From: Lachnospiraceae bacterium
Lineage (GTDB): Bacteria > Bacillota > Clostridia > Lachnospirales > Lachnospiraceae
Assembly: GCA_022776445.1 (NCBI GenBank)
Contig: JALFHZ010000199.1
Location: forward strand, 1 to 44,112
Direction of reading: 5' to 3'
DNA length: 44,112 bases
Part shown: positions 4,335 to 44,053 of the stretch, one piece after another
How positions within the stretch are numbered: the first letter of the stretch is position 1
Layout of the letters: each line of letters starts with the position of its first letter
Translations under genes and position numbers: made by a program
The notes under the pieces: model-generated
Databases searched by the model: none
Seen by the model: only the letters and a program-made list of their open reading frames with translations
What the model was told of the DNA's origin: nothing

Positions 4335-6001
4335 TGCAAACGAGAAAACTGTGGAAACATGGAACAGGGCTTCTGCTTCTGATGACGGGGGTTCTGGCGC
4401 TTCTGGCGGCGGTACATTTTCTGGATGTCCGTGCAGGTGTGTGGGAGAGCGGAGATTCCTGGCAGATCAGCCGTTATCTGGTGCTGGCGGCTGTTGGAAC
4501 GATGTCTGCGGCTGCGGCCGGTGTGCTTCTGCTGCGGAACAGATGCCGTCTGGAGACGGTGTTTATTATCTCGGCGCTGGCATTTGGAAGTCTTTATCTG
4601 TATATTCTGCCTCCGCTTTCGGCGCCGGATGAGGCGCGGCATTATATCAGTGCCTATCAGTTGTCCAACCGGCTGATGGGGTTGCCCGCAGTCGGAGAGG
4701 ACGGGAAGGTTCCGGTTCGGGAGGAGGACTGGTTCGCCGAAGATTCCTGCCGGGATTTTGACGCGTATGTGACTGCAGACGGAGCACTGGCGACCGACGA
4801 GGAAGGTGCAGACGGCGCGAAGGTACTCGGTCAGGTCCTGACGGCAGAAACGTATCGGCTGCTTCATGAGAAGGGGACGGCGTGGGAGGAACCGCGCAGG
4901 GCAGCGGACGGCAGCTATGGCAACGGAACGGCACTTTCCAATCATCACCCGGTAGTGACCACCCCGCTCGCCTATCTGATGCCGGCGCTGGGAATTACTC
5001 TGGCGCGGCTGATCGGGCTCAACTGCACCGGACTGTTGTACTTTGGATGTCTGTTTAATCTGATACTGTTCACTGCAGCAACGTATCTGTCGCTGCGCCG
5101 GCTGCCCTTTGGAAGGGAAGTACTGTTTGGCGTGACACTGCTTCCGATGGTGATTCAGCTTTCGGCATCCTTTTCCTATGATACCTTTATCATGGCCGGT
5201 ATTTTTTACTTTACAGCTCACTGCCTGTATCTGGCGTATGAGGCAGAGCGTGTGCGGCCGCTGGATATTCTGATTCTGGCGCTGGTGATGGCGGCTGTGG
5301 GGCCATGCAAGATGGTCTATACCGTGTTTATGGGACTCTGTCTGCTGATTCCGGCACGCAAATTCGGAACATGGGGCAAATGGCTGCTTTCGGCAGTCTG
5401 TGTCCTGGGTGCGTGGGGAGCGGCGATGGCTCTGATTAATGGGCAGACGGTTGCGTCCTATGCGGCGGAGACAGAGAATTACATTGACTGGGCGGGCGAG
5501 GCCGGATATAGTTTTGCGATGCTGGTACATCAGCCGGTGCGCTGCCTGCAGCTGTTTTTTAACACCGTGATCTGGCAGGCGGAGTATTGGCATATGACGG
5601 TGATCGGCGCTTATCTGGGCAATATTGATACGGTGCTGGATGTACCGTATGTTCTGGTAGTTTTCTTCACAGTCGGACTTCTGGGGCTTGCGCTGCGCAA
5701 ACCGGGGGACAGTCTGGTGCTTGTAGGCGGAAGAAGGTTATGGATCTGGTTTCTGTGCCTGCTGTGCGCGGGGGCCGTGATGTTTTCCATGCTGCTTGCC
5801 TGGACACCGGTCAGTTCGCGGATTATCTGCGGTGTGCAGGGACGGTATTTTCTGCCGTTTCTTCCAATTCTGCTGATGACGTGGAAAAATGACATGGTTG
5901 TTCTGACAGACAATCACGATCGCAGTCTTCTGTACCTGATGTGCTGCGCCAATGTTTATATCGTATTTCGGATATTCAGTATTGTGTGTATGAGGCTGTG
6001 A
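4331..6001 (+). CDS. DUF2142 family multi-pass membrane protein (putative GT-C glycosyltransferase)
   Basis: The 556-residue protein has roughly 12 membrane segments. LPPLSAPDEARHY (about residues 96-108) sits in the first extracytoplasmic loop and carries the Pro-Asp-Glu-x-x-His pattern typical of DUF2142 and similar to the acidic catalytic motif of GT-C glycosyltransferases. A long soluble loop of about 90 residues, rich in acidic residues, separates this motif from the next helices (SNHHPVVTTPLAYLMP). Members of this family lie in surface polysaccharide and rhamnan loci and probably transfer a sugar from a polyprenyl-phosphate donor outside the membrane. The donor would be made by the coupled glycosyltransferase two genes upstream. 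The start overlaps the DUF2304 stop by four bases. The enzymatic role is family-level inference. Confidence 0.75.
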   Translation: MMQTRKLWKHGTGLLLLMTGVLALLAAVHFLDVRAGVWESGDSWQISRYLVLAAVGTMSAAAAGVLLLRNRCRLETVFIISALAFGSLYLYILPPLSAPDEARHYISAYQLSNRLMGLPAVGEDGKVPVREEDWFAEDSCRDFDAYVTADGALATDEEGADGAKVLGQVLTAETYRLLHEKGTAWEEPRRAADGSYGNGTALSNHHPVVTTPLAYLMPALGITLARLIGLNCTGLLYFGCLFNLILFTAATYLSLRRLPFGREVLFGVTLLPMVIQLSASFSYDTFIMAGIFYFTAHCLYLAYEAERVRPLDILILALVMAAVGPCKMVYTVFMGLCLLIPARKFGTWGKWLLSAVCVLGAWGAAMALINGQTVASYAAETENYIDWAGEAGYSFAMLVHQPVRCLQLFFNTVIWQAEYWHMTVIGAYLGNIDTVLDVPYVLVVFFTVGLLGLALRKPGDSLVLVGGRRLWIWFLCLLCAGAVMFSMLLAWTPVSSRIICGVQGRYFLPFLPILLMTWKNDMVVLTDNHDRSLLYLMCCANVYIVFRIFSIVCMRL

Positions 6002-6009
6002 CCTTTCTT

Positions 6010-6038
6010 TTGACAAAGAGAACAGAACGTAGTATATT
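6010..6038 (+). promoter_or_regulatory. Sigma-A type promoter upstream of rfbC
   Basis: A consensus -35 box TTGACA (6010-6015) is separated by 17 bases from TATATT (6033-6038), five of six matches to the consensus -10. It begins nine bases after the stop codon of the DUF2142 gene and 53 bases before the rfbC start. The rfbC-permease-acyltransferase group can therefore be transcribed separately from the glycosyltransferase genes upstream. I see no terminator between the two groups, so read-through is also expected. Confidence 0.75.
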
Positions 6039-6090
6039 GTAAATGTATTTTTCTGCGCCTTTGACGCAAAGAGGAAAGGAACGAGAAAAA

Positions 6091-6645
6091 ATGGGAAAAA
6101 TTAAAGTAACTCCGTGTGAGATAGAAGGCTTGTATGTGATCGAGCCGACGGTATTTAAGGATGAGAGAGGCTATTTTGTAGAGACTTATAATCAGAATGA
6201 TTTCAAAGAAGCAGGTCTGAATATGGTATTTGTCCAGGACAATCAGTCCATGTCTGTGAGAGGCGTGCTGCGCGGTCTGCATTTTCAGAAACAGTTCCCG
6301 CAGGGCAAGCTGGTTCGTGCAATCCGTGGTGCGGTATTTGATGTGGCTGTGGATCTGCGTGCCGATTCCAAAACCTACGGTAAGTGGTTTGGCGTGGAGC
6401 TGACCGCAGAGAATAAGAAGCAGTTCTATATTCCGGAAGGATTTGCGCATGGTTTCCTGGTACTGTCGGATGAGGCGGAGTTTGCTTACAAATGCACGGA
6501 TTTCTATCATCCGGGTGATGAGGGCGGTCTGGCATGGAATGATCCGGAGATCGGCATTGACTGGCCGCTGCAGGAAGGCGTGGAACTGATCATTTCCGAG
6601 AAGGATCAGAAGTGGAGCGGGCTCAAGGATACGTTCAAATTCTGA
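6091..6645 (+). CDS. rfbC: dTDP-4-dehydrorhamnose 3,5-epimerase
   Basis: This 184-residue cupin enzyme converts dTDP-4-keto-6-deoxy-glucose to dTDP-4-keto-L-rhamnose, the third step of dTDP-L-rhamnose synthesis. Diagnostic segments are FKDERGYFVETY near the N-terminus, VLRGLHFQ with the catalytic histidine (about residue 66), FDVAVDLR, and YIPEGFAHGFLVLSDEAEF with the conserved tyrosine/histidine region, ending in DPEIGIDWP. Length is typical. An upstream in-frame ATG at 6043 would add 16 unrelated residues; I chose 6091 because AGGAAAGGA lies just upstream. The partners rfbA, rfbB and rfbD are not in the window, so the other steps must be encoded elsewhere or left of it. Confidence 0.95.
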   Translation: MGKIKVTPCEIEGLYVIEPTVFKDERGYFVETYNQNDFKEAGLNMVFVQDNQSMSVRGVLRGLHFQKQFPQGKLVRAIRGAVFDVAVDLRADSKTYGKWFGVELTAENKKQFYIPEGFAHGFLVLSDEAEFAYKCTDFYHPGDEGGLAWNDPEIGIDWPLQEGVELIISEKDQKWSGLKDTFKF

Positions 6646-17572: not shown

Positions 17573-17621
17573 GCTCATCTTTGCGGCCGGTTCCGATTTA
17601 AGGAAAAGGAGACGAGACGCT

Positions 17622-18137
17622 ATGAAGAGAAGATTTCTGGCAGTGACAGCAGTCGCTGCGGCATTGTCAATCCTTTCCAGCACCGCTGCATTTGCACAGG
17701 GCTGGAGCAAAGTAGGAAGTGACTGGTATTATTATGAAGAGGACGGCAGTGTGGCGAAGAACTGCTGGATTACTTCCGAGAGCGGTACTTACTGGGTGAA
17801 CGTGGATGGCCGCATGGCATCCAACCAGTGGGTATGCGCGGATGATTCCTGGTATTATGTGGATGGCAGCGGTCTGTGCCTGACCAACCAGCTGCTCACC
17901 CTGAACAATGATATCTACTGGCTGGGTGAGGACGGAAAGATGGCTGCTTCCGAATGGGTGACTACTGAGGAAGGCAAGACCTACTATTTCCAGGAGAATG
18001 GCCTGGCGATCAAGAACGGCTGGAAGATGATTGACGGCTATTACTATTACTTTCTGAAGAGTGGTGTGATGGCAGTGGATGCTCTGGTTCCGGGCGGATA
18101 TCGCGTGGGCGCAGACGGCAGATGGATTGAGCGATAA
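17622..18137 (+). CDS. Secreted protein made of choline/cell-wall-binding repeats
   Basis: This 171-residue protein has a signal peptide (MKRRFLAVTAVAAAL..., cleavage probably after AFA at residue 25). The rest is six to seven aromatic repeats of about 20 residues, such as GWSKVGSDWYYYEEDGSVAKN, QWVCADDSWYYVDGSG and GWKMIDGYYYYFLKSGVM. These are the CW-binding type 1 repeats that bind choline on teichoic acids or glycans. There is no catalytic domain, so it may be an adaptor or a surface decoration. The ATG at 17622 has AAGGAAAAGGAG upstream; an overlapping longer frame from 17505 is unlikely. The nearby LicC-like gene makes a choline-type ligand on surface polymers conceivable, but that link is inference. 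Confidence 0.85.
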   Translation: MKRRFLAVTAVAAALSILSSTAAFAQGWSKVGSDWYYYEEDGSVAKNCWITSESGTYWVNVDGRMASNQWVCADDSWYYVDGSGLCLTNQLLTLNNDIYWLGEDGKMAASEWVTTEEGKTYYFQENGLAIKNGWKMIDGYYYYFLKSGVMAVDALVPGGYRVGADGRWIER

Positions 18138-18149
18138 GATGTACAGAAG

Positions 18150-18176
18150 GCGGAGTGGTGATTCACTCCGCTTTTT
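18150..18176 (+). terminator. Intrinsic terminator shared by convergent genes
   Basis: An 8-bp GC-rich stem (GCGGAGTG, 18150-18157, with CACTCCGC, 18164-18171) and a six-base loop are followed by TTTTTC. It ends the repeat-protein transcript. Its right arm (18164-18171) overlaps the last codons and stop of the convergent tetR gene, so the two ORF ends are packed around one hairpin. Flanking ACAGAA/TTCTGT could extend the stem. Confidence 0.85.
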
Positions 18177-18792
18177 CTGTCTGATGGAGAAGAAACTGAA
18201 GCGTCCCTGCCGGAATTCCCATGGCTGATTCCTGAATATTCTCCAGGACGAGCATCGTATTGATTCGTTCTTCCTGGGACAGGCAGACCGGGTGGTTGTC
18301 CAGGATATGGGTGAGCAGTGTCAGAATGATATGGGCAGTTTCTTCCGGATGTGTGCACTGCAGAACTCCTTCCTCTCTTCCCTGCCGCAGGATATCGGTC
18401 AGAATAGGCTTCAGTTCTGTGATGATAATACAGGCGAATTTCTGATGAATCAGTGCATTCTGCTGCTGTTCGGAGAAAGAACTGTTCGCCTCCTGACGCT
18501 TCAGCTCCTGTGCGGCATCCAGGCAGGAATAGTGTATAATCTTCATTTTTTCAAACACGGAGATACCGGGAGCTTCCGCCAGGTGTCTGCCTTTTTCCAG
18601 AACCCGGGAGTATGATCGTTCGATGACTTCTCCGATGATATCATTCTTTGATGAAAAATAATAATAGATGGTTCCTTTGCCGATTCCGGCCTGTCTGGCG
18701 ATGTCACTGACGGTGGTGCTGCTGGCTTTTCCTTCCGCCATGAGTTTCTGCATGGAATCCAGAATGAGTTCCCGTTTTTTTGTCATTTTCAT
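18163..18792 (-). CDS. TetR family transcriptional regulator
   Basis: This 209-residue regulator has an N-terminal helix-turn-helix in TVSDIARQAGIGKGTIYYYF (about residues 29-48), followed by SSKNDIIGEVI, the standard TetR start of the ligand-binding helices. The C-terminal part is all helical and gives no ligand clue. It reads away from the SCP2-hydrolase-acyltransferase-ACP-ligase group, with a 217-bp gap that holds a perfect palindrome, so it is probably the repressor of that group, responding to an acyl or lipid ligand. The start at 18792 is supported by GAGGAA upstream on this strand; the ATG two codons later is also possible. Confidence 0.9.
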   Translation of the reverse strand: MKMTKKRELILDSMQKLMAEGKASSTTVSDIARQAGIGKGTIYYYFSSKNDIIGEVIERSYSRVLEKGRHLAEAPGISVFEKMKIIHYSCLDAAQELKRQEANSSFSEQQQNALIHQKFACIIITELKPILTDILRQGREEGVLQCTHPEETAHIILTLLTHILDNHPVCLSQEERINTMLVLENIQESAMGIPAGTLQFLLHQTEKAE

Positions 18793-18902
18793 ATAAATTC
18801 CTCAAAAATCAGTTCAATTGGAGCATTTTCGGCATTTTTCCATGTACAAGTATATCAGAATCGAGATGGGGAAACCAGAGCTTTTTTGGGTAATTGTAAG
18901 TA

Positions 18903-18931
18903 TTGACGGAAGAAAAGAAACATGATAAGTT
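18903..18931 (+). promoter_or_regulatory. Promoter of the SCP2-acyltransferase-ACP-ligase operon
   Basis: TTGACG (18903-18908, five of six) and TAAGTT (18926-18931) are spaced by 17 bases, and TGA immediately before the -10 makes it an extended -10. Transcription would begin near 18938, just before the palindromic operator candidate at 18946-18962. On the other strand, a TATACT box (18854-18849) could drive tetR. Confidence 0.6.
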
Positions 18932-18945
18932 AATTTTAACAGAGC

Positions 18946-18962
18946 TTCGACCGGTGGTCGAA
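18946..18962 (+). promoter_or_regulatory. Palindromic operator, probably for the adjacent TetR regulator
   Basis: TTCGACC-GGT-GGTCGAA is a perfect 7-bp inverted repeat with a three-base centre, much more GC-rich than its AT-rich surroundings. It lies about eight bases after the expected transcription start and 47 bases before the SCP2 start codon. Size and symmetry fit a TetR-family dimer site that would block transcription. Confidence 0.7.
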
Positions 18963-19009
18963 AATCTGATACTATGAGAAAAGATAAGTATTTCAGGAGG
19001 GTTGAAGGT

Positions 19010-19333
19010 ATGTCTTTTGAAGAGATGTTTGCCAGGGCAAAGGAGTTGTTTATGAAATCAGACGTGAGCGGTGTGCAGGAGCATCTGGCATATCAGTTCA
19101 ATATTACCGGCGAGTGCGGCGGTATCTTCTATGCGGAAGTGAAGGACAGCAAGCTGAGTGTGGAGCCATACGAGTATTTTGACCGCGACGCGATTTTCAT
19201 TTGTTCAGCAGATACGCTGTTTAAGCTGGCAGAAGGAAAGCTGGATCCGGTACTGGCGTTTACCCTTGGAAAACTGAGAGTGGAGGGAAGCATAGAGCAG
19301 GCATTAAAACTGAAAGACTTCCTGGCAAAATAA
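19010..19333 (+). CDS. SCP2 sterol-carrier-like lipid-binding protein
   Basis: This 107-residue protein is a single SCP2-type domain. AYQFNITGECGGIFYAEVKD forms the beta-sheet start, and CSADTLFKLAEGKLDPVLAFTLGKLRVEG is the typical helix-helix-strand ending that lines a lipid tunnel. SCP2 domains bind fatty acyl chains, acyl-CoA or other lipids without catalysis. An in-frame ATG at 18974 lies upstream, but AGGAGG (18995-19000) is correctly placed only for ATG 19010. It is the first gene of the acyl-transfer cluster and may hold or present the lipid substrate or product. Confidence 0.88.
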   Translation: MSFEEMFARAKELFMKSDVSGVQEHLAYQFNITGECGGIFYAEVKDSKLSVEPYEYFDRDAIFICSADTLFKLAEGKLDPVLAFTLGKLRVEGSIEQALKLKDFLAK

Positions 19334-19364
19334 GTAAAAAAAGAACAGAAAGAAGGGGATTGTC

Positions 19365-20306
19365 ATGAACATTGGCAAATGGCTGATTGGAACAGCTGCA
19401 GTGGGGGCGGCGGGTGAGTATGCACTGGCACGGTATTTCCTGCGTCGGACTCTGATTCGAGGCAACGCGAAGCAGGAGCGGACTGTGGATATGGCCGGGA
19501 CAGATTGGGATCTGTACATACCGATGATTCATGCGAGCAAGGAGCGCCGGGACGCCTGGCCGAAGGAAGATGTATATATTACATCCGATGACGGACTGAA
19601 GCTGCACGGTACCTGGTTCCCGCAGGAAAGCTCTGAGAAAACGGCAATCTGTTTTCACGGGTATACCAGCGAGGGGCTGAATGACTATTCCACCATTGCG
19701 GAGTTTTACCACAACCATGGATTCAATCTGCTCCTGGTGGATGAGCGGGCACATGGTAAGAGTGAAGGAAAGTACATTGGATTTGGCTGTCTGGATCGTT
19801 ATGATGCAGTGTGCTGGATCCGCTATGTGATTGAGCGTGTGGGCGAGGACAGTCAGATTATGCTGCATGGTGATTCCATGGGCGGAGCGACGGTTCTGAT
19901 GACCTCCGGTCTGGAACTGCCGCCTCAGGTGAAAGGAATTATTTCTGACTGCGCTTTCACCTCCGCCTGGGAGGTATTTACCTCCGTTTTGAAGAACATG
20001 TATCATCTGCCGGCGTTTCCTCTGATGCAGATTGCAGACAGGATGGCGAAGAAAGAAGCCGGATACGGACTGAATGAGTGCAACGCCCGCGAGGAAGTAA
20101 AGAAATCCAAAACACCAACCGTATTTATTCACGGAGATGCGGACACCTTCGTGCCATTTCGCATGGTGCACGAATTGTATGATGCCTGCGCGGCTCCCAA
20201 GAAGCTGGTAGTGATAAAAGGAGCCGGACACGCGGAAGCATGTTACAAAGAACCTGAGACCTATGAGCATGCGATGAAGGACTGGATTGACCGGTACTTT
20301 GAGTAA
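19365..20306 (+). CDS. Alpha/beta hydrolase with N-terminal membrane segment
   Basis: The 313-residue protein has a hydrophobic N-terminus (about residues 5-25) that may anchor it, then a serine hydrolase domain. CFHGYTSEGLNDY is the oxyanion strand, LVDERAHGKSEG the conserved loop, and LHGDSMGGATVL the nucleophile elbow (Ser about 170). FIHGDADTFVP holds the acid and GAGHAEA the histidine. It looks like a BAAT/YqkD-type esterase or thioesterase. Position between SCP2 and the HxxxD acyltransferase suggests release or remodelling of acylated products, which is inference. Confidence 0.88.
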   Translation: MNIGKWLIGTAAVGAAGEYALARYFLRRTLIRGNAKQERTVDMAGTDWDLYIPMIHASKERRDAWPKEDVYITSDDGLKLHGTWFPQESSEKTAICFHGYTSEGLNDYSTIAEFYHNHGFNLLLVDERAHGKSEGKYIGFGCLDRYDAVCWIRYVIERVGEDSQIMLHGDSMGGATVLMTSGLELPPQVKGIISDCAFTSAWEVFTSVLKNMYHLPAFPLMQIADRMAKKEAGYGLNECNAREEVKKSKTPTVFIHGDADTFVPFRMVHELYDACAAPKKLVVIKGAGHAEACYKEPETYEHAMKDWIDRYFE

Positions 20307-20329
20307 ACGATATAGGGAGAGATTAAGAT

Positions 20330-21739
20330 ATGAAGACAAGGAAAGGCAATAAAACGTACCCATTGACTGCTGCGCAGTATCTGCATTATTACTGCCTTGC
20401 AACCTGTCCGATGGAACAGGTGCTGAACATCGGTTCCAGCCTGACGATTCAGGTTGAGCTGGACTGGGATCTGATGCGGGAATCCATTCAGGAGGCGATT
20501 GCTAGATGCGAGGCTGCGCGGATTCATCTGGCATTTGATAAAAAGGAAAACAAGGTTTATCAGTATGTGGTGAAGGAGTACGACCGTCCGATTGAGCATT
20601 TTGATTTCAGCGGATGGACCATGGAGGCGGCACGTGACAAGATGACTGAGTGGACGCATATGCCGTTTGCCCGTTATGATGCTCCGCTGAACCGGATTGT
20701 GATGATCAAAACACCGGATGGTTATCAGGGCATTTATATGTGTGTGGATCACCTGACGATGGACGCGCAGTCGCTGATCATGTTTTTCCGGGATATCATC
20801 GAGATCTACAGCCATAAGAAATACAATGCTGTGGATTACCCGAAGGAGATGGCTTCCTATCTGAAACAGCTGCAGAAGGATCTGGAATACGAGGCTGGTT
20901 CCAAGAGCAGCCAGAGAGACCGGGAGTTCTTCCATAAGCTGATTGCTTCTTCCGAACCGATCTACACGGATGTGTACGGCGGTGTAAAGCTGGCAGAAGA
21001 ACGTAAAAAATACAACAATCCGAACCTGCGTGCAGCGACTGTGATTCCGGAAACCATGGAAGCCAATCTGAAGAATTTCCATCTGGAGGCAGAGCCGACG
21101 GCGCGTATGATGAAATTCTGTGAGGATCATCATATTTCCATGACCTGTCTTCTGATGATGGGACTGCGTACCTATCTGCAGAAGGTGAACAATCAGGATG
21201 ATGTCTCCATCACCTCCACGGTCGCACGACGCGCGACTCTGACCGAGAAACGCTGCGGCGGCACCCGGATTCACTGCTTCCCGTTCCGCACGATTGTACC
21301 GCGGGAGGATACCTTTATTGAAGGTATCTGTAAGATCCGTGATGGTCAGAACATGCTGTTCCGCCATGCGAATTTCAGTTCTCCGGAATATTTTTATTAT
21401 CGTTCCCAGTATTATAAGCTGCAGCATGGCCAGACCTATGAGGCGATGGCTCTGACCTACCAGCCGCTGGGCATGAAATACACCGGTCCGGGACATGAGA
21501 AGATGAAGGACATCAAATACCGCGCGGCCCGCTATGGCAACGGCGTGGCAGGTCAGCCGCTGTATCTGACGGTCAGCCATCATCCGGAAGATGACGGTCT
21601 GGACTTCTGTTTTGAATATCAGACCGGAGCTGTGGATGATGCCAAGCTGCAGGATGTATATTATTATGTGTGCCGCATTATTTTCCGCGGAATCGAGGAC
21701 TGCAACCGTACCGTGGGCGAAATTATTGACTGGATATAG
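20330..21739 (+). CDS. HxxxD-type acyltransferase related to NRPS condensation domains
   Basis: This stand-alone 469-residue protein has the two-lobed organisation of the condensation/WES/PapA superfamily. MCVDHLTMDAQSLIMFFRD contains the catalytic H-x-x-x-D as His141 to Asp145; the first histidine of the canonical HH pair is Asp140. The second lobe carries SITSTVARRATLTEKRCGG and IHCFPFRTIV, comparable to the floor-loop and bridging strands of the family. No carrier or adenylation domain is fused. These enzymes join an acyl group on a carrier or CoA to an amine or alcohol. The ACP gene follows 37 bases later and an acyl ligase after that, so the acyl donor is probably acyl-ACP. The acceptor is unknown. 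Confidence 0.8.
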   Translation: MKTRKGNKTYPLTAAQYLHYYCLATCPMEQVLNIGSSLTIQVELDWDLMRESIQEAIARCEAARIHLAFDKKENKVYQYVVKEYDRPIEHFDFSGWTMEAARDKMTEWTHMPFARYDAPLNRIVMIKTPDGYQGIYMCVDHLTMDAQSLIMFFRDIIEIYSHKKYNAVDYPKEMASYLKQLQKDLEYEAGSKSSQRDREFFHKLIASSEPIYTDVYGGVKLAEERKKYNNPNLRAATVIPETMEANLKNFHLEAEPTARMMKFCEDHHISMTCLLMMGLRTYLQKVNNQDDVSITSTVARRATLTEKRCGGTRIHCFPFRTIVPREDTFIEGICKIRDGQNMLFRHANFSSPEYFYYRSQYYKLQHGQTYEAMALTYQPLGMKYTGPGHEKMKDIKYRAARYGNGVAGQPLYLTVSHHPEDDGLDFCFEYQTGAVDDAKLQDVYYYVCRIIFRGIEDCNRTVGEIIDWI

Positions 21740-21776
21740 GGGATATAAAATAGAAAGATAGAGGAGAACAAAAAAG

Positions 21777-22004
21777 ATGCTGGACGAGTTAAAAGAGATT
21801 ATCTGTAACTATGTGGATGTGAATCCGGAAGACGTGAATGAGGATTCCCGCTTTGTGGAAGATCTTGGGTTTACCTCCTATGACTTTATGAGCATGGTTG
21901 GAGAACTGGAAGAACAGTATGATATTGAAGTGGAAGAGCGTGAGGTCGTGAGAATCATGACTGTGGGCGACGCAATTCAGTATCTGGAGAAGCTGATTGG
22001 TTAA
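21777..22004 (+). CDS. Acyl carrier protein
   Basis: This 75-residue acidic four-helix protein carries a phosphopantetheine attachment serine in EDLGFTSYDFMSMVGELEE (Ser34); the usual D-S-L becomes T-S-Y. DVNPEDVNEDSRF before and MTVGDAIQYLEKLI after match helices I and IV of carrier proteins. It is distinct from the housekeeping fatty acid AcpP (normally with GADSLD) and is likely the dedicated carrier of this cluster. GAGGAG precedes the ATG. No phosphopantetheinyl transferase is nearby, so activation must come from elsewhere in the genome. Confidence 0.92.
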   Translation: MLDELKEIICNYVDVNPEDVNEDSRFVEDLGFTSYDFMSMVGELEEQYDIEVEEREVVRIMTVGDAIQYLEKLIG

Positions 22005-22029
22005 GAGCGTGGAAAGCCAGGAGGAAAAC

Positions 22030-23541
22030 ATGGCAGCAGAAACATTGAGAGACATTGTCCGCTATGCGGCGGAACAGTACGGCACGCAGGCGGCATATCG
22101 TTACAAAGTGAACAAGGAAATTGAGGAACGCACCTATGATGAACTGAACCGGGATTCCATGGCAGTCAGCCGTATGGTGGAACAGCTTGGGATGAAGGGC
22201 AGACACATTGCCCTGATCGGTGTGACCAGTTATTCCTGGATCATCGGATTTTTCGGTGTGACCGGCAGCGGCAGCGTGGCGGTGCCGATTGATATACAGC
22301 TTCCGGCGGCAGCAGTCTGTGACCAGCTTAACCGGGCAGATGTGGAGATGCTGATTCTGGACGAGCTCCGTGCGGATCTGATTGCAGCTGTGCAGGAACA
22401 GTGCCCGAAGGTGAAGGTGATCGTATCCATGCAGGGTACGCTGGCATCGGAAGGCGGCGTTCTGTCCCTGCCGATGCTTCTGGAAGAAAGTCAGGGCATC
22501 AGCACGTATGAGCCGGAACCGGATCAGCTCTGCACCATCCTGTTTACCTCCGGAACAACCGGAAGAAGCAAGGGTGTGATGTTGTCACACCGCAATCTGG
22601 CAGACAATGCAACGTCTCTTGACCTGAGAATCCCGGTCGGTACTGTGACAATGACGCTGCTTCCGATCAATCATGTATATTGCCTGACCATGGATATCAT
22701 CAAGGGCGTGTACATCGGTGTTATCTCCTGCATCAACGATTCCATCATGCGCGTGGCACGCAATATGAAGCTGTTCCAGCCGGAACTGGTCCTGATGGTT
22801 CCGATGGTCATCGAGTCCATTTACAAAAAGCTGCGGGATGTGGATCCGAATATTCCGAAGGCATTGGTTGCAAAAGAGGTGTTTGGCGGCAGACTTCATA
22901 CGATCTGCAGCGGCGGCGCTTATCTGGATCCGGAATATGTGGACAAATTCGCGGAATACGGAATCACCATTCTGCAGGGCTACGGTATGAGTGAATGCTC
23001 CCCGGTGATCAGTACCAATCTGCCGTGGGACAACCGCAGAGGATCTGTCGGCAAGCTGCTTCCGAACTGCGAAGCGAAGGTTGTGGACGGGGAACTGTGG
23101 GTGAAGGGCAGCAGTGTTATGATGGGCTACTACCATATGCCGGAGGAGACGAAGGAAGCATTGGAAGACGGATGGCTGAAGACCGGGGATCTGGGACATC
23201 TGGATGAGGATGGATATGTATATCTGACCGGACGCAAGAAGAACCTGATTATTCTGGCCAATGGTGAAAATGTGTCTCCGGAAGAACTGGAGAATGAGCT
23301 GAACCGCAGTGACCTGGTGAAGGAGATTCTGGTACGCGAGAAGGAGCGGGTGATTGAAGCGGAGATCTTTCCGGATCTGGAATATGCCCAGAAGTGCGGC
23401 ATTACAGATATGAAGGCGGCGCTTCAGAAGCTGATTGACGATTTTAACAAAAATATGCCGGTTTACAAGCGCATCTACAGCCTGATTGTCAGGGATGTGG
23501 AGTTCGAAAAGACGGCGGCAAAGAAGATCAAGCGGTTTTGA
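22030..23541 (+). CDS. AMP-dependent acyl ligase (acyl-ACP/acyl-CoA synthetase type)
   Basis: The 503-residue enzyme belongs to the ANL superfamily. FTSGTTGRSKGVMLSHRNL (about residues 170-188) is the ATP loop, LQGYGMSECSPVIS (about 315-328) is motif A5, LKTGDLGHLDEDGYVYLTGR (about 382-401) is the hinge and A8 region, and KKNLIILANGENVSPEELE follows. The terminal KKIKRF holds the catalytic lysine of the C-domain. Similarity is to fatty-acid ligases rather than amino-acid adenylation domains, so it probably activates a carboxylic acid and loads it on the neighbouring ACP. The start at 22030 is set by CAGGAGG at 22017-22023. It closes the operon, followed by a strong terminator. Confidence 0.9.
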   Translation: MAAETLRDIVRYAAEQYGTQAAYRYKVNKEIEERTYDELNRDSMAVSRMVEQLGMKGRHIALIGVTSYSWIIGFFGVTGSGSVAVPIDIQLPAAAVCDQLNRADVEMLILDELRADLIAAVQEQCPKVKVIVSMQGTLASEGGVLSLPMLLEESQGISTYEPEPDQLCTILFTSGTTGRSKGVMLSHRNLADNATSLDLRIPVGTVTMTLLPINHVYCLTMDIIKGVYIGVISCINDSIMRVARNMKLFQPELVLMVPMVIESIYKKLRDVDPNIPKALVAKEVFGGRLHTICSGGAYLDPEYVDKFAEYGITILQGYGMSECSPVISTNLPWDNRRGSVGKLLPNCEAKVVDGELWVKGSSVMMGYYHMPEETKEALEDGWLKTGDLGHLDEDGYVYLTGRKKNLIILANGENVSPEELENELNRSDLVKEILVREKERVIEAEIFPDLEYAQKCGITDMKAALQKLIDDFNKNMPVYKRIYSLIVRDVEFEKTAAKKIKRF

Positions 23542-23562
23542 AAATAAAGTTCAGATAACAAA

Positions 23563-23595
23563 AACCCCGGAGCAGTGAGTGCTTCGGGGTTTTTT
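23563..23595 (+). terminator. Intrinsic terminator of the acyl-transfer operon
   Basis: A 12-bp stem (23563-23574 with 23580-23591, one G-U pair, four consecutive C-G pairs) with loop GTGAG is followed by TTTTT. It lies 21 bases after the ligase stop codon and separates the cluster from leuB. Confidence 0.93.
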
Positions 23596-38080: not shown

Positions 38081-38173
38081 AGTTAGCATAAGAGATGGAA
38101 GTACCGCATGTACAGTTTCGATGTGCAACGGATATATTACAGAAAAAAACGGAGAGGGAGGATAGAGTGGGCT

Positions 38174-41100
38174 ATGAGCATGGAAAACTTGAAAACAGGG
38201 AAACGCGGAAGCAAAGCTTCACAGCTCGCAAGGTTCTTGCATCGTGAAGGGAAAAAATACTGTGCAATTGCACTGTGCGCCAGTTTGATTGCCGGCAATA
38301 TCGGTAATATGGCAGTCGCGGCAGATGACGGAAGAAGCAATGATTATGAATTTGAACTGGATCGTGTTTCGCTGTATGAGGCATTGCAGGAAGCAGTTTT
38401 AACGGATCAGACCGTTGACAGGAGTTTCGAGTTCGTCGGAGAGGCGGCAGATACTTATGATTCGCTGATGGAGGCAAACGGAACTCTGTACGAACTGACA
38501 CCGGAGATCAAAGATAATGACGGCGCATTGAACCTGCGCATTTTTGCACGTCTGGATGGTGAAATTGAGCTGGACAGTGCGTATGAGATCGACGGTTCCG
38601 AAGAAATGATTTTCCTTTTGACCAATACGTCTGATGTAGAGAAGACGGCAGTCATTCATGTGGATGATAAGGGTACGGAGGAGATCAAAGTAGCACCGAG
38701 AAGTGCAGTCCAGTCAGACGATCAGGCCAATCCGTACAAGTCGGCAGCTGAGATAACGGGAAGTCCGGGAGCAGTCGGTGATATTACAACAAATAGCGGA
38801 GAAGGCATTGTGATCAGTGGCGGTTCCGGCAGCTCCAGCAGCGGCGGCAGTTCCAGCAGCGGCGGCAGCGGCGGCGGAGGAAATACCGGCGGCGGAAAAG
38901 GTGGCTTCAGCGGTGTGGCTGATGTAGTGGTGATTGAGACCGAGAAAGGAACCGAGGCGAAGGAAGTCAGTCAGGAACAGGAGTCTGATGAGGGAAGCGA
39001 AAAGGCTGAGGAAGACGAGAAGACGCAGGAGAACGACCATACTCAGAAGACAGAAACAGAGGATGCCCCAAAAGAAGAAAATAAGGCAGATGAGGATGTA
39101 ATAGATTCATCGGATGCAGAAATCACGATTGATACGGATACTGACACAAATCAGGGTCAGGAAGAGGTCCGGGAAGATACTGAAGTGTCAGTAGATGAGC
39201 CGGAACAGGAAGCTGCAGATCACAGTCCGGTGGCAGCGATTTCCTGGCATGAGACTTCCCGCGTAGCAGCAACCCCATCGAATACGGATAAAGCGACCCC
39301 ATCGGATGCTACCGATTCCAATGCAGATCCGAATGCGCTGGATGGCATGGTGTATGAGGTTGTGGGGCTGGAGAAGGACACGGCGGTAGCGTTTGTGACG
39401 ACTGCCGGAGATCTTGCGATGGATGAAGAGACATTTTTTGAGTGGGCAGCTTCATCAAAAACAATGAAGCATTATAATGCAGAACTTGAAAATATAACCG
39501 TTACAGTCAATGCACGAAGCGGAGATCTTCCGGAAGATGCGGAATTGTTTGTAACGGAGCTGAAGGAGGATGATGCTGACACAGCAGAACAGTTTCAGAC
39601 CGCGAAAAATGCATTAGATGCAAAAGGCGTAGAGTATGATGGAATGATGGCTTTGGACATCCGTTTTATGGATTCGGAAGAAAATGAAATCGAGCCGAAG
39701 CATGGCGTACAGGTATCAATTCAGATGCATCAAGAAGCGATGTCAGGGCAAGCAGATCCAGATTCTTTAGTGGTGCATCATCTGGATGAGAGCAATACGG
39801 AAGTCTCACTTGAGAATGTTGCAGGTGAGGCGAATGGAGAAACAGCACTAACTGGAACGGTCGAAGTGAACGAAGGCACCGCAATAGCAGAATTCTGTAT
39901 AGACAGCTTTTCAACCTTTGCAATCAGTTGGAGAGCAGCGGCCCTTGCAGTTTCCTATACCTCTTATAAAGTTACATTTGATATCGGTTCAGAGGCAGCA
40001 GCAGCAGGTGTAGAAGTACCGGAAGCGGTTATGACCAGTACAGAAACGAGCTGCGTAGATAGTTTGCCTACACCGGTTTGGAATGATGCGAATGGGACAT
40101 CCATAAAGTCATTTGGCGGCTGGTATTCTGATGAAGAACTGGATACGGAATTTGACACAGATACAATGGTATCACAAGATATTACCGTTTATGCAAAATG
40201 GGTTGAGGTGACTGATTCCAGTTATCATGTAAACTTTTATAGTCAGGATGGTGGAACGGTTCTTCTGACGGTGGCAGTGGAAGCGGGAAGGACGGTATCG
40301 TCTGCGAAGGCACAATTATTAGAGAAAAAGATTTTCAAAGGCTGGTCGACAGTGAAGCAGGGAGATCAGCCGGTAACGGAGCTTGTAGCGTTTGATTTTA
40401 CCGAAACGATCAGTGAAGTCATTACAGATGGAAGTTATACGTTAAATCTTTATGCGTGGTATGGAGACGAGGTGAGTGTCAGCTTCATTTCAAACGGAGG
40501 TATCGCTGTTCCGACGAAGTATATTGCTGCAGGCGAGACAGTTGCAAAACCAATTACAACCCGCGAGGGCTATACATTTCGTGGATGGTCAACCAGTAAT
40601 ACGGAATATGCAGAATTCGATTTTACGACTGTGATTTATACAGACAGGACACTCTATGCATTCTGGAACGCAAATTATGTGCCGGTTACACTGGTTTATA
40701 TGAATGAGAATGCGGATGATGATGGTTATACTCCTGCCGGAATCAGCCAGACAGTATATGCACCTTCTGGTTCATATGTTTCGGTTGTAAAAAGTACGAT
40801 TACAAACAAGGGTCAAACACATGCACTCAAGTATTCGGAAACACCTGATGGGGAATTAACAGGAACTGTGTATAATTCTGTAAATAGCACGGGGGCAGCG
40901 AATATTCCGGATATCAGTCAAACGTATTATCAGTATCATACAGCCAGCAATAAGCGACAGGTAATGCCGGATGGATCAACGGTAATGTTGGTTTATTATA
41001 ACCGTGCGAGAATTACTTTGACATTCCGATATGAGACTACCGGCAGCAGAAATGATAGTTATCCCAATGGAGATCGGGCGTCATTGTCTGGTTATTCGGA

Positions 41101-43222
41101 AACAGATAAGTATCAGGTACAATACAATCATTATGATACGGACAAATTAAAATTTACTTATTCGTTTGTAGCAAAGTACGGCGAGAATATTACTCCGGTT
41201 TGGCCTCAAATTGGATGGGTGAGCAATAATAGTAAGGATAATCGTACATTTTTTACATGGCGTTGTCCAGATGAGCATATTCAGTCTTCCAATATGTTTA
41301 CATTAGAGTCATCGCTGTTTGCAACAACAAGAGATGATGGAGTAAAGATTGAAAACGGTATTCTGGTTGGCAGTGGAAAACTAACAGCGGAAGCAACAGA
41401 TGTGTCAGTTGACTGGCTGATTTATGCAAGAACGACATTATCTGGAGAAACAGCAGATTTTAAATATAATAATACATATTATACAATTTATGCAGAGGCT
41501 TGCCAAAAAGCATATTCAAGTAGCGGATATAAATATAAAAGTTTAGATGGATGTTTGGCAGTGACTGGAAAGCCGCAATGGAGAGAAACATACGGGAATC
41601 TTGGAAATTCAACATCTTTAAAAGCTAGTAATGTAACAGTTTATACTGCACAAACTTCAAAAACAATAAAAAGCATTTTTAATGATGTTTTTGGAGCAAG
41701 TAATATAGGTTCCAATGATCGCTGTCAGATACTTCTTTACAACCGAAATAGTTTAAGCCTATCTTTGCATGTATATGATGATGTATATGGTGAGAATACA
41801 AAGAAAGATACGTATTATTATGGTGATTTGATATACAACGATAATACTGATTTGCTTAAGACGGTTGAGTCCGGGATGAAAAAAGAAGGTCATATTTTTG
41901 CGGGTTGGTATACGGATCCAAACTATATTGATGGTACGCTGTATGTACCAGATGAAAATTCCAGAATTAACAGCAATATGGAACTATATGCTAAGTGGGA
42001 GCCGGATCAGTTTAAAGCGGAGTATTATCTTTATGTAGATGATGCATTACCATATCGAACACAAGGTTTTGCGGAAGGAGGAAAGTTAGAAGATTTCACC
42101 GTTCCTGTAGGAGTACAGGACAGTTTCAAGGGCTGGTATTGGTATCAGGATGGAAAGCTTCAACCGTTTGATTTCACATCTGCGGTGGGAGCAAATCATG
42201 TGGATAAGGATGGTGTGATTAAACTGTACGGTGTTTGGGAAGGTGATAAGGGAAAGGTTTGTTATTTGCCTGGTATTGGTGGAGATAATAACACACAGAC
42301 AGTTTATGACAATAGAGATTTTGCCGTGAATGACGCAAGCGTACAACTACCTGATCCTAAGGATGTTTGGAAAAATGGATCTGTTCCATCGGATCCGAGT
42401 CTTTCCTTTGTTGGTTGGAAAGCACCCAACGGTGCAATTTACCAGCCGGGAAGATATGTGCTGGTTACCCGTATCCTGATGCAGTTTGAAGCCCAATGGT
42501 CCAAAGATGCTGTTACGTTGATTTATGATGGCAATGAAGGTAGTGGTCAACGGGTAACAGAGCAATGGGAAAGAAATAGTAATGTTGATATCTGGGATAA
42601 CATGGATGCGAATACCCCGCATTTCGTCCGTGATGGTTATGAACTAGTCGGATGGGATGAGGACAAAGATGCGGTTGAGCCAACATATGCATTGGGTGAA
42701 GGTAGCATTGCACTAACAAAAGATACCACCACGTTATATGCGATTTGGAAGAAACAGACGGTTGATGTGGTGATTACCAAACAAGTTACCGGCATTCTGG
42801 GTGATCGAAGCAAGGCATTCTCGTTTATTGTGACTTGTGACAGCGCTATGGAAGCAGATGCGGCTAATTATACACTTACGGAAGAAGGAAAGAAAGCGGA
42901 ATTTTCACTTGGTCATGGAAACAATATAACACTAAAAGGGATCAGGATCGGTTCGACACTGACTATTGCAGAATCGAATATAGAAGGTTACACAATGACA
43001 TTAAGTAGCGATGATGTAACATTTGACAAAGATAGCTGCACGATACCGGAGCATATTACCGATCAGATCCATATTACAGTGACCAATGATAAGACAGGAA
43101 ATGTGGATGCCGGTGTTCTTCTTGATTCCTTACCATATGCTCTGATTCTTGGCGCAGTAGCAGCAGGCATTGCATTCTATGTCATCCGTAAACGGAAAGA
43201 AGATGAAAACGATCTTGATTAA
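38174..43222 (+). CDS. Giant cell-surface protein: InlB-type repeats and C-terminal pilin-like domain
   Basis: The 1682-residue secreted protein has a signal peptide with hydrophobic core YCAIALCASLIAGNIG (about residues 29-44), cleaved near AVA-AD (about 50). A short folded N-domain is followed by a Gly/Ser-rich linker (about 215-248) and a highly acidic Glu/Asp linker (about 256-353). Residues about 596-1530 contain roughly seven InlB B-type/Listeria-Bacteroides repeats ending in G-W-Y/S...L-Y-A-x-W (FGGWYSDEEL, FRGWSTSNTEYAEF, FAGWYTDPNYIDG, LVGWDEDKDA), interrupted by an unfamiliar central part (about 835-1200). Residues about 1531-1640 (VVITKQVTGILGDRSKAFSF to IHITVTNDKTG) resemble FctA/Spy0128-type pilin domains that form Lys-Asn isopeptide bonds. 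A membrane helix and RKRKE tail close it; no LPxTG is seen. ATG 38174 has GAGGGAGG upstream; ATG 38108 is less likely. Confidence 0.85.
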   Translation: MSMENLKTGKRGSKASQLARFLHREGKKYCAIALCASLIAGNIGNMAVAADDGRSNDYEFELDRVSLYEALQEAVLTDQTVDRSFEFVGEAADTYDSLMEANGTLYELTPEIKDNDGALNLRIFARLDGEIELDSAYEIDGSEEMIFLLTNTSDVEKTAVIHVDDKGTEEIKVAPRSAVQSDDQANPYKSAAEITGSPGAVGDITTNSGEGIVISGGSGSSSSGGSSSSGGSGGGGNTGGGKGGFSGVADVVVIETEKGTEAKEVSQEQESDEGSEKAEEDEKTQENDHTQKTETEDAPKEENKADEDVIDSSDAEITIDTDTDTNQGQEEVREDTEVSVDEPEQEAADHSPVAAISWHETSRVAATPSNTDKATPSDATDSNADPNALDGMVYEVVGLEKDTAVAFVTTAGDLAMDEETFFEWAASSKTMKHYNAELENITVTVNARSGDLPEDAELFVTELKEDDADTAEQFQTAKNALDAKGVEYDGMMALDIRFMDSEENEIEPKHGVQVSIQMHQEAMSGQADPDSLVVHHLDESNTEVSLENVAGEANGETALTGTVEVNEGTAIAEFCIDSFSTFAISWRAAALAVSYTSYKVTFDIGSEAAAAGVEVPEAVMTSTETSCVDSLPTPVWNDANGTSIKSFGGWYSDEELDTEFDTDTMVSQDITVYAKWVEVTDSSYHVNFYSQDGGTVLLTVAVEAGRTVSSAKAQLLEKKIFKGWSTVKQGDQPVTELVAFDFTETISEVITDGSYTLNLYAWYGDEVSVSFISNGGIAVPTKYIAAGETVAKPITTREGYTFRGWSTSNTEYAEFDFTTVIYTDRTLYAFWNANYVPVTLVYMNENADDDGYTPAGISQTVYAPSGSYVSVVKSTITNKGQTHALKYSETPDGELTGTVYNSVNSTGAANIPDISQTYYQYHTASNKRQVMPDGSTVMLVYYNRARITLTFRYETTGSRNDSYPNGDRASLSGYSETDKYQVQYNHYDTDKLKFTYSFVAKYGENITPVWPQIGWVSNNSKDNRTFFTWRCPDEHIQSSNMFTLESSLFATTRDDGVKIENGILVGSGKLTAEATDVSVDWLIYARTTLSGETADFKYNNTYYTIYAEACQKAYSSSGYKYKSLDGCLAVTGKPQWRETYGNLGNSTSLKASNVTVYTAQTSKTIKSIFNDVFGASNIGSNDRCQILLYNRNSLSLSLHVYDDVYGENTKKDTYYYGDLIYNDNTDLLKTVESGMKKEGHIFAGWYTDPNYIDGTLYVPDENSRINSNMELYAKWEPDQFKAEYYLYVDDALPYRTQGFAEGGKLEDFTVPVGVQDSFKGWYWYQDGKLQPFDFTSAVGANHVDKDGVIKLYGVWEGDKGKVCYLPGIGGDNNTQTVYDNRDFAVNDASVQLPDPKDVWKNGSVPSDPSLSFVGWKAPNGAIYQPGRYVLVTRILMQFEAQWSKDAVTLIYDGNEGSGQRVTEQWERNSNVDIWDNMDANTPHFVRDGYELVGWDEDKDAVEPTYALGEGSIALTKDTTTLYAIWKKQTVDVVITKQVTGILGDRSKAFSFIVTCDSAMEADAANYTLTEEGKKAEFSLGHGNNITLKGIRIGSTLTIAESNIEGYTMTLSSDDVTFDKDSCTIPEHITDQIHITVTNDKTGNVDAGVLLDSLPYALILGAVAAGIAFYVIRKRKEDENDLD

Positions 43223-43236
43223 CGGAGGACATGAGG

Positions 43237-43512
43237 ATGGGAAAAGAAAAAGCTCAAAATCAGTCTCTTCCCAGTACGGAAAAAGCACCAATCAATTCTG
43301 AACAACAGAAAATCGTCGAATGGCTGAAGAAAGTCCGCTTTCGAAAACAGCTGTTTGGCGGTGTCAGCGAAGCAGATGTCTGGAAGAAGATTGATGAGTT
43401 AAATAAGCTGTATGATGCTGCGTTAACTGCGGAGAGAATCCGGTACGAAACATTATTGGCTGAAAACAAGACAGGGATTCTCTCGCCGGAAGAGAGGCAG
43501 GGTGATGGGTAA
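43237..43512 (+). CDS. Small uncharacterised helical protein next to the signal-peptidase-like gene
   Basis: This 91-residue protein has no signal peptide or membrane segment. The core FRKQLFGGVSEADVWKKIDE, followed by LNKLYDAALTAERIRYETLL, looks like a short loop and a long charged helix that could form a coiled coil; the G-G-V-x-E-x-D-V-W pattern recalls the G-Y-x-x-x-x-V motif of DivIVA-like N-termini. Residues 1-25 are polar and probably disordered. ATG 43237 lies eight bases after GGAGG; ATG 43231 would be too close. It begins 14 bases after the surface protein stop and overlaps the next gene by eight bases, so the three are co-expressed. Function unknown. Confidence 0.75.
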   Translation: MGKEKAQNQSLPSTEKAPINSEQQKIVEWLKKVRFRKQLFGGVSEADVWKKIDELNKLYDAALTAERIRYETLLAENKTGILSPEERQGDG

Positions 43513-44053
43513 GCAGAAGAAAGAAAAAACAGCTACGGAAGTGATCAGAGCACGAAGAATCGCACTGAATACGAAACAGGAATATATTCAATTATTTACA
43601 CGTATTGTGGTGCTGGCGCTTGCGGGATACCTGATTTTCACTCAGGTATTTCTGATTACGCAGAATAAGGGGCAGGATATGTTTCCTGCGATGAAAGACG
43701 GAGACCTGATTGTTGCGTTCCGGATGCAGAAGGAATATGCAAAGAACGATGTTGTGGTTTATACCGTCGATGGTAAGCAGAAGGTGGGACGGATCGCTGC
43801 CAGGGAAACGGATGTGGTGACAATAGATGAAAGCGGAAAGCTTTTAGTCAACGGAACCGTGCAGTCAGGAGAAATCCTGTATCCGACTTATCAGAAAGGC
43901 GAACTGGAGTATCCGTATAAGGTACCGGAAAACCATGTATTCATACTGGGAGATTACCGGACGAACGCGGAAGACAGCCGGGATTATGGGCCGGTTCCGA
44001 TGAACCAGGTGAAGGGAAAAGTGATCACCATTCTGCGAAGACGGGGCTTGTAG
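43505..44053 (+). CDS. Signal peptidase I-like protein lacking both catalytic residues (SipA-like)
   Basis: The 182-residue protein has one N-terminal membrane helix (about residues 31-52) and the S26 peptidase fold. GQDMFPAMKDGDLIVAFR (about 56-73) corresponds to the family's G-x-S-M-x-P-T box, with Asp58 in place of the nucleophilic serine. KVGRIAARETDVV (about 93-105) aligns with the K-R-I-I-G-L-P-G-D-x-V box so that Gly95 takes the place of the catalytic lysine. The last motif GDYRTNAEDSRDYGPVP is kept. Streptococcal SipA, required for pilus polymerisation, is known to have the same Asp and Gly replacements and is not an active signal peptidase. It lies directly after a pilin-domain surface protein. 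ATG 43505 is preferred over GTG 43502 (GAGAGG upstream). Confidence 0.85.
   Translation: MGKQKKEKTATEVIRARRIALNTKQEYIQLFTRIVVLALAGYLIFTQVFLITQNKGQDMFPAMKDGDLIVAFRMQKEYAKNDVVVYTVDGKQKVGRIAARETDVVTIDESGKLLVNGTVQSGEILYPTYQKGELEYPYKVPENHVFILGDYRTNAEDSRDYGPVPMNQVKGKVITILRRRGL

Follow-up and report, generated by a model that had tools for sequence, protein, structure and literature searches.

A probable fatty acid amide operon with a hydrolase, an SCP2-fold protein and a TetR-linked operator in a Lachnospiraceae bacterium

Contig JALFHZ010000199.1 of a Lachnospiraceae bacterium (assembly GCA_022776445.1), of which a stretch of 44,112 nucleotides (the window) was analysed in this study, carries between positions 18163 and 23541 a TetR-family repressor gene and, divergent from it, five tightly spaced genes on the plus strand. 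This unit is very probably a fatty acid amide (FAA) or 'CTA' operon, in which a stand-alone condensation domain (C), an acyl carrier protein (ACP; T) and a stand-alone acyl ligase (A) would together make an N-acyl amine. Judged from its sequence, the C-T-A core is an already known kind of operon, since the window has exactly the published C-T-A order. What the locus adds to the known core is a serine hydrolase, an SCP2-fold lipid-binding protein, the TetR repressor and a conserved operator. The features of the unit are the following.

18163..18792, minus strand: TetR-family repressor, divergent from the operon (PF00440 8.7e-13, PF21303 1.8e-12)
18937..18971, no strand: predicted operator, core TTCGACC-N3-GGTCGAA at 18946-18962 in a longer imperfect dyad
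19010..19333, plus strand: SCP2-fold lipid-binding protein, 107 aa (PF02036 4.7e-12)
19365..20306, plus strand: alpha/beta (S33-like) serine hydrolase (PF12146 2.6e-17)
20330..21739, plus strand: C, stand-alone condensation domain, FAA type, motif DHLTMDA (PF00668 3.9e-34)
21777..22004, plus strand: T, ACP, presumed attachment site Ser34 (PF00550 5.3e-12)
22030..23541, plus strand: A, stand-alone acyl ligase of the ANL superfamily (PF00501 1.5e-62)
23560..23594, plus strand: rho-independent terminator hairpin, from fold energy

The condensation domain carries the assignment of the core. PF00668 spans residues 8-464 of the 469 residues of C, a full-length condensation domain, and the comparison with the PDB places C clearly in the OaaC family: 12kh_A (OaaC of Coprococcus eutactus) is matched over residues 7-468 at 3.2e-100 with 38% identity, and the second-best match reaches 3.7e-5. 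According to the accessible portion of the report on entry 12KH, OaaC is a stand-alone condensation domain that couples acyl-ACP with aminovaleric acid, its ACP-dependent amide synthesis has been reconstituted, and the FAA motif is (D/H)HxxxD followed by Ser (42%), Ala (36%) or Gly (17%) (PMC13142362). The motif of C in the window, DHLTMDA at residues 140-146, lies inside this published range. His141, Asp145, Ala146 and Gln147 are each invariant (91/91) in C sequences from loci that also carry SCP2, and position 140 varies among the same 91 sequences (Asp in 73, Asn in 12, His in five and Ser in one). In a FastTree phylogeny of 131 C sequences, from which duplicates had been removed, the SCP2-bearing members descend from one node (107 tips) that leaves OaaC outside, and its support is modest (0.766). 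The initial annotation, made from the window alone, had called this protein an HxxxD acyltransferase, which is right as to the motif and to acyl transfer; the PF00668 and OaaC matches identify it further as a condensation domain of the nonribosomal peptide synthetase (NRPS) type. Its view that the cluster is neither a standard polyketide synthase nor an NRPS holds in so far as no assembly line is present, but C belongs to the NRPS type of condensation domain and acts outside such a line. Its statement that no described pathway has exactly this set is wrong for the core, because C matches OaaC and the C-T-A arrangement is the published FAA/CTA operon.

The two partners of C have the expected character. 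A separate ACP gene sits between C and A with its attachment Ser present, and the adenylating ligase is likewise a separate protein encoded in the same operon. The ACP matches TIGR00517 at 9.3e-17, which is under the cut-off of that model, and Ser34 is conserved in 140/140 homologues. The top NCBIfam model for the ligase is a long-chain fatty acid-CoA ligase, again under its cut-off; the P-loop residues are kept in 133-135 of 135 sequences and the C-terminal Lys in 131/135, with residues numbered for these counts from the TTG at 21997. Rows were not de-duplicated in the conservation counts for the ACP, the hydrolase and the ligase. Elsewhere in the genome one protein matches the phosphopantetheinyl transferase family, and the host, a member of the Lachnospiraceae, fits the known hosts of FAA/CTA operons.

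The set of genes is conserved as a neighbourhood, a check that the initial annotation had itself proposed for its five-gene set and that could have refuted it. The named set comprises the 80 best among 531 relatives confirmed in a genome scan, and it leans to close relatives; 62 of these loci had at least 3 kb of upstream and 2 kb of downstream sequence, and the other 18 were dropped for short flanks. The hydrolase precedes C-T-A in all 62 loci, the ACP and the ligase are present in all 62, SCP2 and a divergent TetR homologue in 54 each, and all six genes in 48. A second sample comprised 396 genomes of the family of the window and overlaps partly with the named set (L071, for instance, is the contig of L011). 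C was found at E <= 1e-60 in 65 of these genomes, at 66 places including the window and in 52 of 280 genera. The other 65 places fall into two main forms, with 43 loci in clade I (window-like), 16 in clade II (OaaC-like) and six remaining. Upstream sequence of 3 kb was available for 39 of the 43 clade I loci, and 33 of these carry TetR, SCP2, hydrolase and ligase; three lack TetR, two lack SCP2 and one lacks both, while the hydrolase is present in 39/39. The 16 clade II loci have C-T-A with neither SCP2 (0/16) nor a close TetR (0/16), a weak TetR match (1e-5 to 1e-7) occurring somewhere in the stretch in nine. A hydrolase lies near C in seven clade II loci (directly upstream in five, upstream behind a TetR gene in one and downstream in one) and is missing in nine, two of which have less than 2 kb of upstream sequence. 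The six remaining loci have variant arrangements: L149, L150 and L151 have C with no ACP or ligase detected nearby, the gene order is C-A-T in L153 and T-A-C in L154, and C in L152 is shortened to 299 aa. A search of viral contigs found no relatives.

The region between the TetR and SCP2 genes holds the palindrome TTCGACC-GGT-GGTCGAA (18946-18962), which is embedded in an imperfect dyad (18937-18971) with 16-nt arms that are 81% complementary. The pattern was taken from the window and tested on the intergenic regions from TetR to SCP2 (or to the hydrolase), padded by 60 bp; the test set consisted of 102 regions, 89 of them distinct and the window included. TTCGACC-N3-GGTCGAA with at most two mismatches is present in 82 of the 89 distinct regions, compared with 0.15 expected from dinucleotide shuffles, and it tracks the TetR gene: after removal of duplicates, it occurs within 3.2 kb upstream of C in 80 of the 85 clade I loci that have TetR, in one of the 12 that lack it (L048) and in none of 18 loci outside clade I. 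The Fisher p of 5e-10 for this association is overstated because the loci are related. The operator-like palindrome described in the initial annotation is therefore well above chance, and we infer that it is a conserved operator bound by the TetR protein. An exact form, NTYGACC-N3-GGTCGAA, was scanned for in 28 operon-bearing genomes chosen out of the 65; 18 of them contain it, and each of the 20 sites is on the contig of C and upstream of that gene. The genome of the window has a single exact site, the one at the operon. A repressor that serves mainly one operon is supported by these data, as exact sites were found at the operon only, and the same counts, from the 28 chosen genomes and that of the window, led us to reject a wide TetR regulon. 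Among PDB entries the repressor is closest to 3b81 (2.9e-17), and it also matches 3whb, a 'Fatty acid metabolism regulator', at 1.5e-7.

The hydrolase is the most constant companion of the core. Its triad, S171, D260 and H289, is conserved in 131/131 sequences at each position. In a profile search the hydrolase was found at E <= 1e-60 in 139 of the 396 genomes; each of the top 50 matches has a C gene within 6 kb, the match at rank 51 has none so close, and among the top 64 there are 52 with C at this distance. The clade I copies among the first 43 matches have 1e-142 or better, and genomes that lack C give no match better than 5e-108 (G210). Operon copies were the source of both the hydrolase and the SCP2 profile, and the rankings are therefore biased toward such copies. 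The matches of the hydrolase in the PDB are assorted esterases and other hydrolases, and no substrate is fixed by them. Its N-terminus is rich in Ala and Gly, and its membrane association is uncertain: the hydropathy of the first 70 residues exceeds 1.6 in only 54 of 131 copies and is 1.15 in that of the window. The SCP2 protein matches sterol carrier protein 2 in the PDB at 1e-4, its AlphaFold2 model is a confident one with a mean pLDDT of 91.5, and 40 of its 61 matches at E <= 1e-46 in the 396 genomes are near C.

Of the 21 close SCP2 matches away from C, 19 were examined, in 18 loci. Five of these loci (L162, L168, L169, L171 and L179) have a divergent TetR of the same family and an operator-like site with one to three mismatches beside SCP2, and no C match was found in their genomes in the 396-genome search. 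In L179 a piece of 158 aa that matches the ligase profile at 3.7e-63 follows directly after TetR-operator-SCP2 (5873-6349), an apparent remnant from loss of the amide half of the operon, which points to loss of C-T-A rather than to its later gain. A sixth such locus, L177, ends at a contig edge, and the operon of its genome begins at another contig edge. Because this upstream half occurs without C-T-A, SCP2 and TetR probably have a function of their own in fatty acid handling. The remaining SCP2 loci away from C have no constant neighbour besides TetR in some. At one locus, L166 (1520-2294), an SCP2 gene of this subfamily stands beside an ACP-like gene and a one-mismatch operator-like site, with no TetR, C or ligase detected nearby; perhaps it belongs to another acyl pathway that a related switch controls.

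The layout of the unit largely agrees with the initial annotation. Every one of its five tightly spaced genes, the lipid-binding protein and the hydrolase included, was confirmed by Pfam, as was the TetR gene, and the four intergenic gaps are 31, 23, 37 and 25 bp. The start of SCP2 was reset from 18974 to the ATG at 19010, which is preceded by AGGAGG and at whose corresponding position (MTYEE/MNYAE) several homologues start, and that of the ligase was reset to the ATG at 22030. The single terminator stands: the hairpin at 23560-23594 with its U tract folds at -24 kcal/mol (z -6.32, equalled by 0/200 shuffles), although a consensus terminator scan missed it. The single promoter is not confirmed. 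A consensus scan gives only 9-of-12 matches, ten compared with 5.8 (sd 2.4) in shuffles, and these are scattered over both strands throughout the region. Just upstream of the unit, 17619-18137 encodes a small choline-binding-repeat protein, and L010, a relative from the genus of the window, has two matches in tandem at the corresponding place. Farther along the window, a protein of 1704 aa with Listeria-Bacteroides repeats and a DUF7601 domain (38108-43222) is followed by a signal peptidase gene (43502-44053), and the pair is a probable surface protein unit.

A mechanism can be proposed by analogy with the reconstituted OaaC relative. A would activate a free fatty acid with ATP and load it onto the phosphopantetheine of the ACP, and C would move the acyl group from the ACP onto a free small amine and release the N-acyl amine. 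Activation, loading on a dedicated carrier and transfer to an acceptor, as the initial annotation had it, thus remain the best reading in view of the OaaC family of C and the C-T-A order. Of the three products it suggested, the N-acyl amide fits the FAA core, and an ester lipid or an acylated envelope component is disfavoured. The hydrolase would most likely act on the acyl side, either to liberate fatty acids from lipids or to remove acyl-ACP that has stalled, and SCP2 would most likely bind the free fatty acid or the product. TetR would repress the operon through TTCGACC-N3-GGTCGAA and most likely be released by a fatty acid or an acyl thioester, with expression of the set in the presence of fatty acids; that the inducer is a fatty acyl compound is a guess, because the matches of TetR to FadR models are weak. 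The likely benefit would be fatty acid detoxification, which has been reported for Blautia. We further propose, tentatively and at somewhat less than even chances, that one large clade carries the FAA operon as a unit of six genes for fatty acid disposal, self-contained and switched by a ligand. In such a unit a single-operon TetR would sense the fatty acid or thioester through one genomic operator, SCP2 would capture it, the operon-specific hydrolase would feed or police the acyl supply and C-T-A would cap it with an amine; TetR-operator-SCP2 would form a sensing and capture half, able to outlive loss of the amide half.

Several observations weigh against assigning the locus to an N-acyl amine pathway under a dedicated fatty acid switch. 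The tree includes no starter C domains, and a grouping of C with the FAA enzymes as opposed to starter domains is suggested by the strong OaaC match; C is only 38% identical to OaaC and belongs to another clade, for which reason the acceptor and even the type of bond could differ. The operon is patchy, as C is present in just two of 24 genomes of the genus of the window. SCP2 is not operon-specific (of its 61 close matches, 21 are at places with no C gene nearby), and the five loci described above have TetR-operator-SCP2 without C-T-A. The substrate proposed for the hydrolase and the ligand proposed for SCP2 are conjectural. The repressor matches the FadR-type model NF053878 at 2.4e-12 with 47 bits, below the cut-off of 200. 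As to the operator, the exact pattern is absent from ten of the 28 operon-bearing genomes, a control pattern read backwards has chance matches in six of 28, and the genome of the window has three more candidate sites at two mismatches, the reversed control giving 28 matches per strand there.

Some of these points lend themselves to other explanations. HxxxD enzymes are able to make esters, and C might, with activation and loading unchanged, acylate a hydroxyl or a component of the envelope; the product would then be an ester lipid or an acylated part of the wall and not a free N-acyl amine. The acceptor in the clade of the window is assigned from OaaC by analogy, and the motif Asp is followed by Ala-Gln in all 91 SCP2-bearing C sequences and mostly by Ser in OaaC-like ones. 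However, C is clearly of the OaaC family and Ala after the motif Asp is found in 36% of the published FAA set, and we consider this explanation improbable. That the locus is a piece of an ordinary NRPS, condensing amino acids, is hardly credible. PF00668 and, weakly, three NCBIfam NRPS models match C, but the domains are separate single-domain proteins, the ligase is nearest to fatty acyl ligase models and the OaaC match is far stronger than that to any assembly-line C domain. A canonical NRPS module, with C, peptidyl carrier protein and an amino acid A domain in one protein, was rejected on the same separation and on the amino acid model TIGR01733, which is far below its cut-off.

The remaining alternatives concern the accessory genes. 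TetR-operator-SCP2 may be an independent module for the handling of fatty acids that was joined to the operon as its upstream part; its repressor and SCP2 would serve fatty acid sequestration, and the hydrolase with C-T-A would be a disposal add-on. The five loci without C-T-A and the 21 SCP2 relatives away from C favour such a history, but L179 suggests that C-T-A was lost rather than gained later, and all six genes stand together in 48/62 loci; we regard it as a possible but rather doubtful account, which is compatible with an FAA operon and not exclusive of it. That hydrolase, SCP2 and TetR are chance neighbours of C-T-A is very unlikely. In clade II the core does stand without a hydrolase in 9/16 loci and without SCP2 or a close TetR in 16/16, but the hydrolase is linked in 62/62 loci and lies near C even in seven clade II loci, C occurs in 52 genera of the 396-genome sample, and the top 50 hydrolase matches are near C, as ranked by a profile seeded from operon copies. 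For the hydrolase itself, chance neighbourhood was rejected on the linkage in 62/62 loci and the position of those 50 matches.

An FAA operon of this form is of interest since bacterial FAAs act on human gut receptors. With its conserved operator, its repressor gene and two genes beyond C-T-A, the locus provides a concrete, widely shared and testable handle on the timing of amide production; if the proposed disposal unit is real, luminal fat would induce production of host-active amides. The hydrolase and SCP2 are candidate missing parts, the reconstitutions having used A, T and C only, and operator plus hydrolase constitute a search signature for the six-gene form. Chang et al. 2021 is reportedly the founding paper on the FAA/CTA operon. 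None of the titles and abstracts listed in the literature searches describes accessory genes within an FAA operon. In a word search of the accessible portions of PMC13142362 and PMC13060934 the hydrolase, SCP2, TetR and operator are unmentioned, and Chang et al. 2021 may show them. The dependence of FAA synthesis on fatty acid supply appears in the accessible part of the 2026 structural paper as a proposal only (PMC13142362).

Three known systems can be compared with the locus. FadR-type TetR regulators share the TetR fold and weak similarity with the repressor of the window, which differs from them in its score (47 bits vs 200) and in having exact operator sites, where found, at one operon only. 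The OAA cluster of C. eutactus, as presented in the accessible text (OaaA, OaaACP and OaaC; PMC13142362), shares the stand-alone C, the ACP, the ligase and the (D/H)HxxxD class. It differs in the motif, where OaaC-like enzymes have mostly Ser after the Asp and C of the window has Ala-Gln, and the 16 OaaC-like loci, a comparison that the C. eutactus locus itself lies outside, have no SCP2 and no close TetR, whereas the window has both. In the portion of PMC13060934 available, CTA is a three-gene operon of 36 species, all Lachnospiraceae, in which membership is set at no less than 70% identity of C and A to catalogued proteins, and it is connected there with GLP-1 release and with the detoxification of fatty acids. 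The Blautia wexlerae CTA operon treated there shares with the window the C-T-A order, the host family and a possible role in detoxification; it is described as three genes, and to these the window adds the hydrolase, SCP2, TetR and the operator (PMC13060934).

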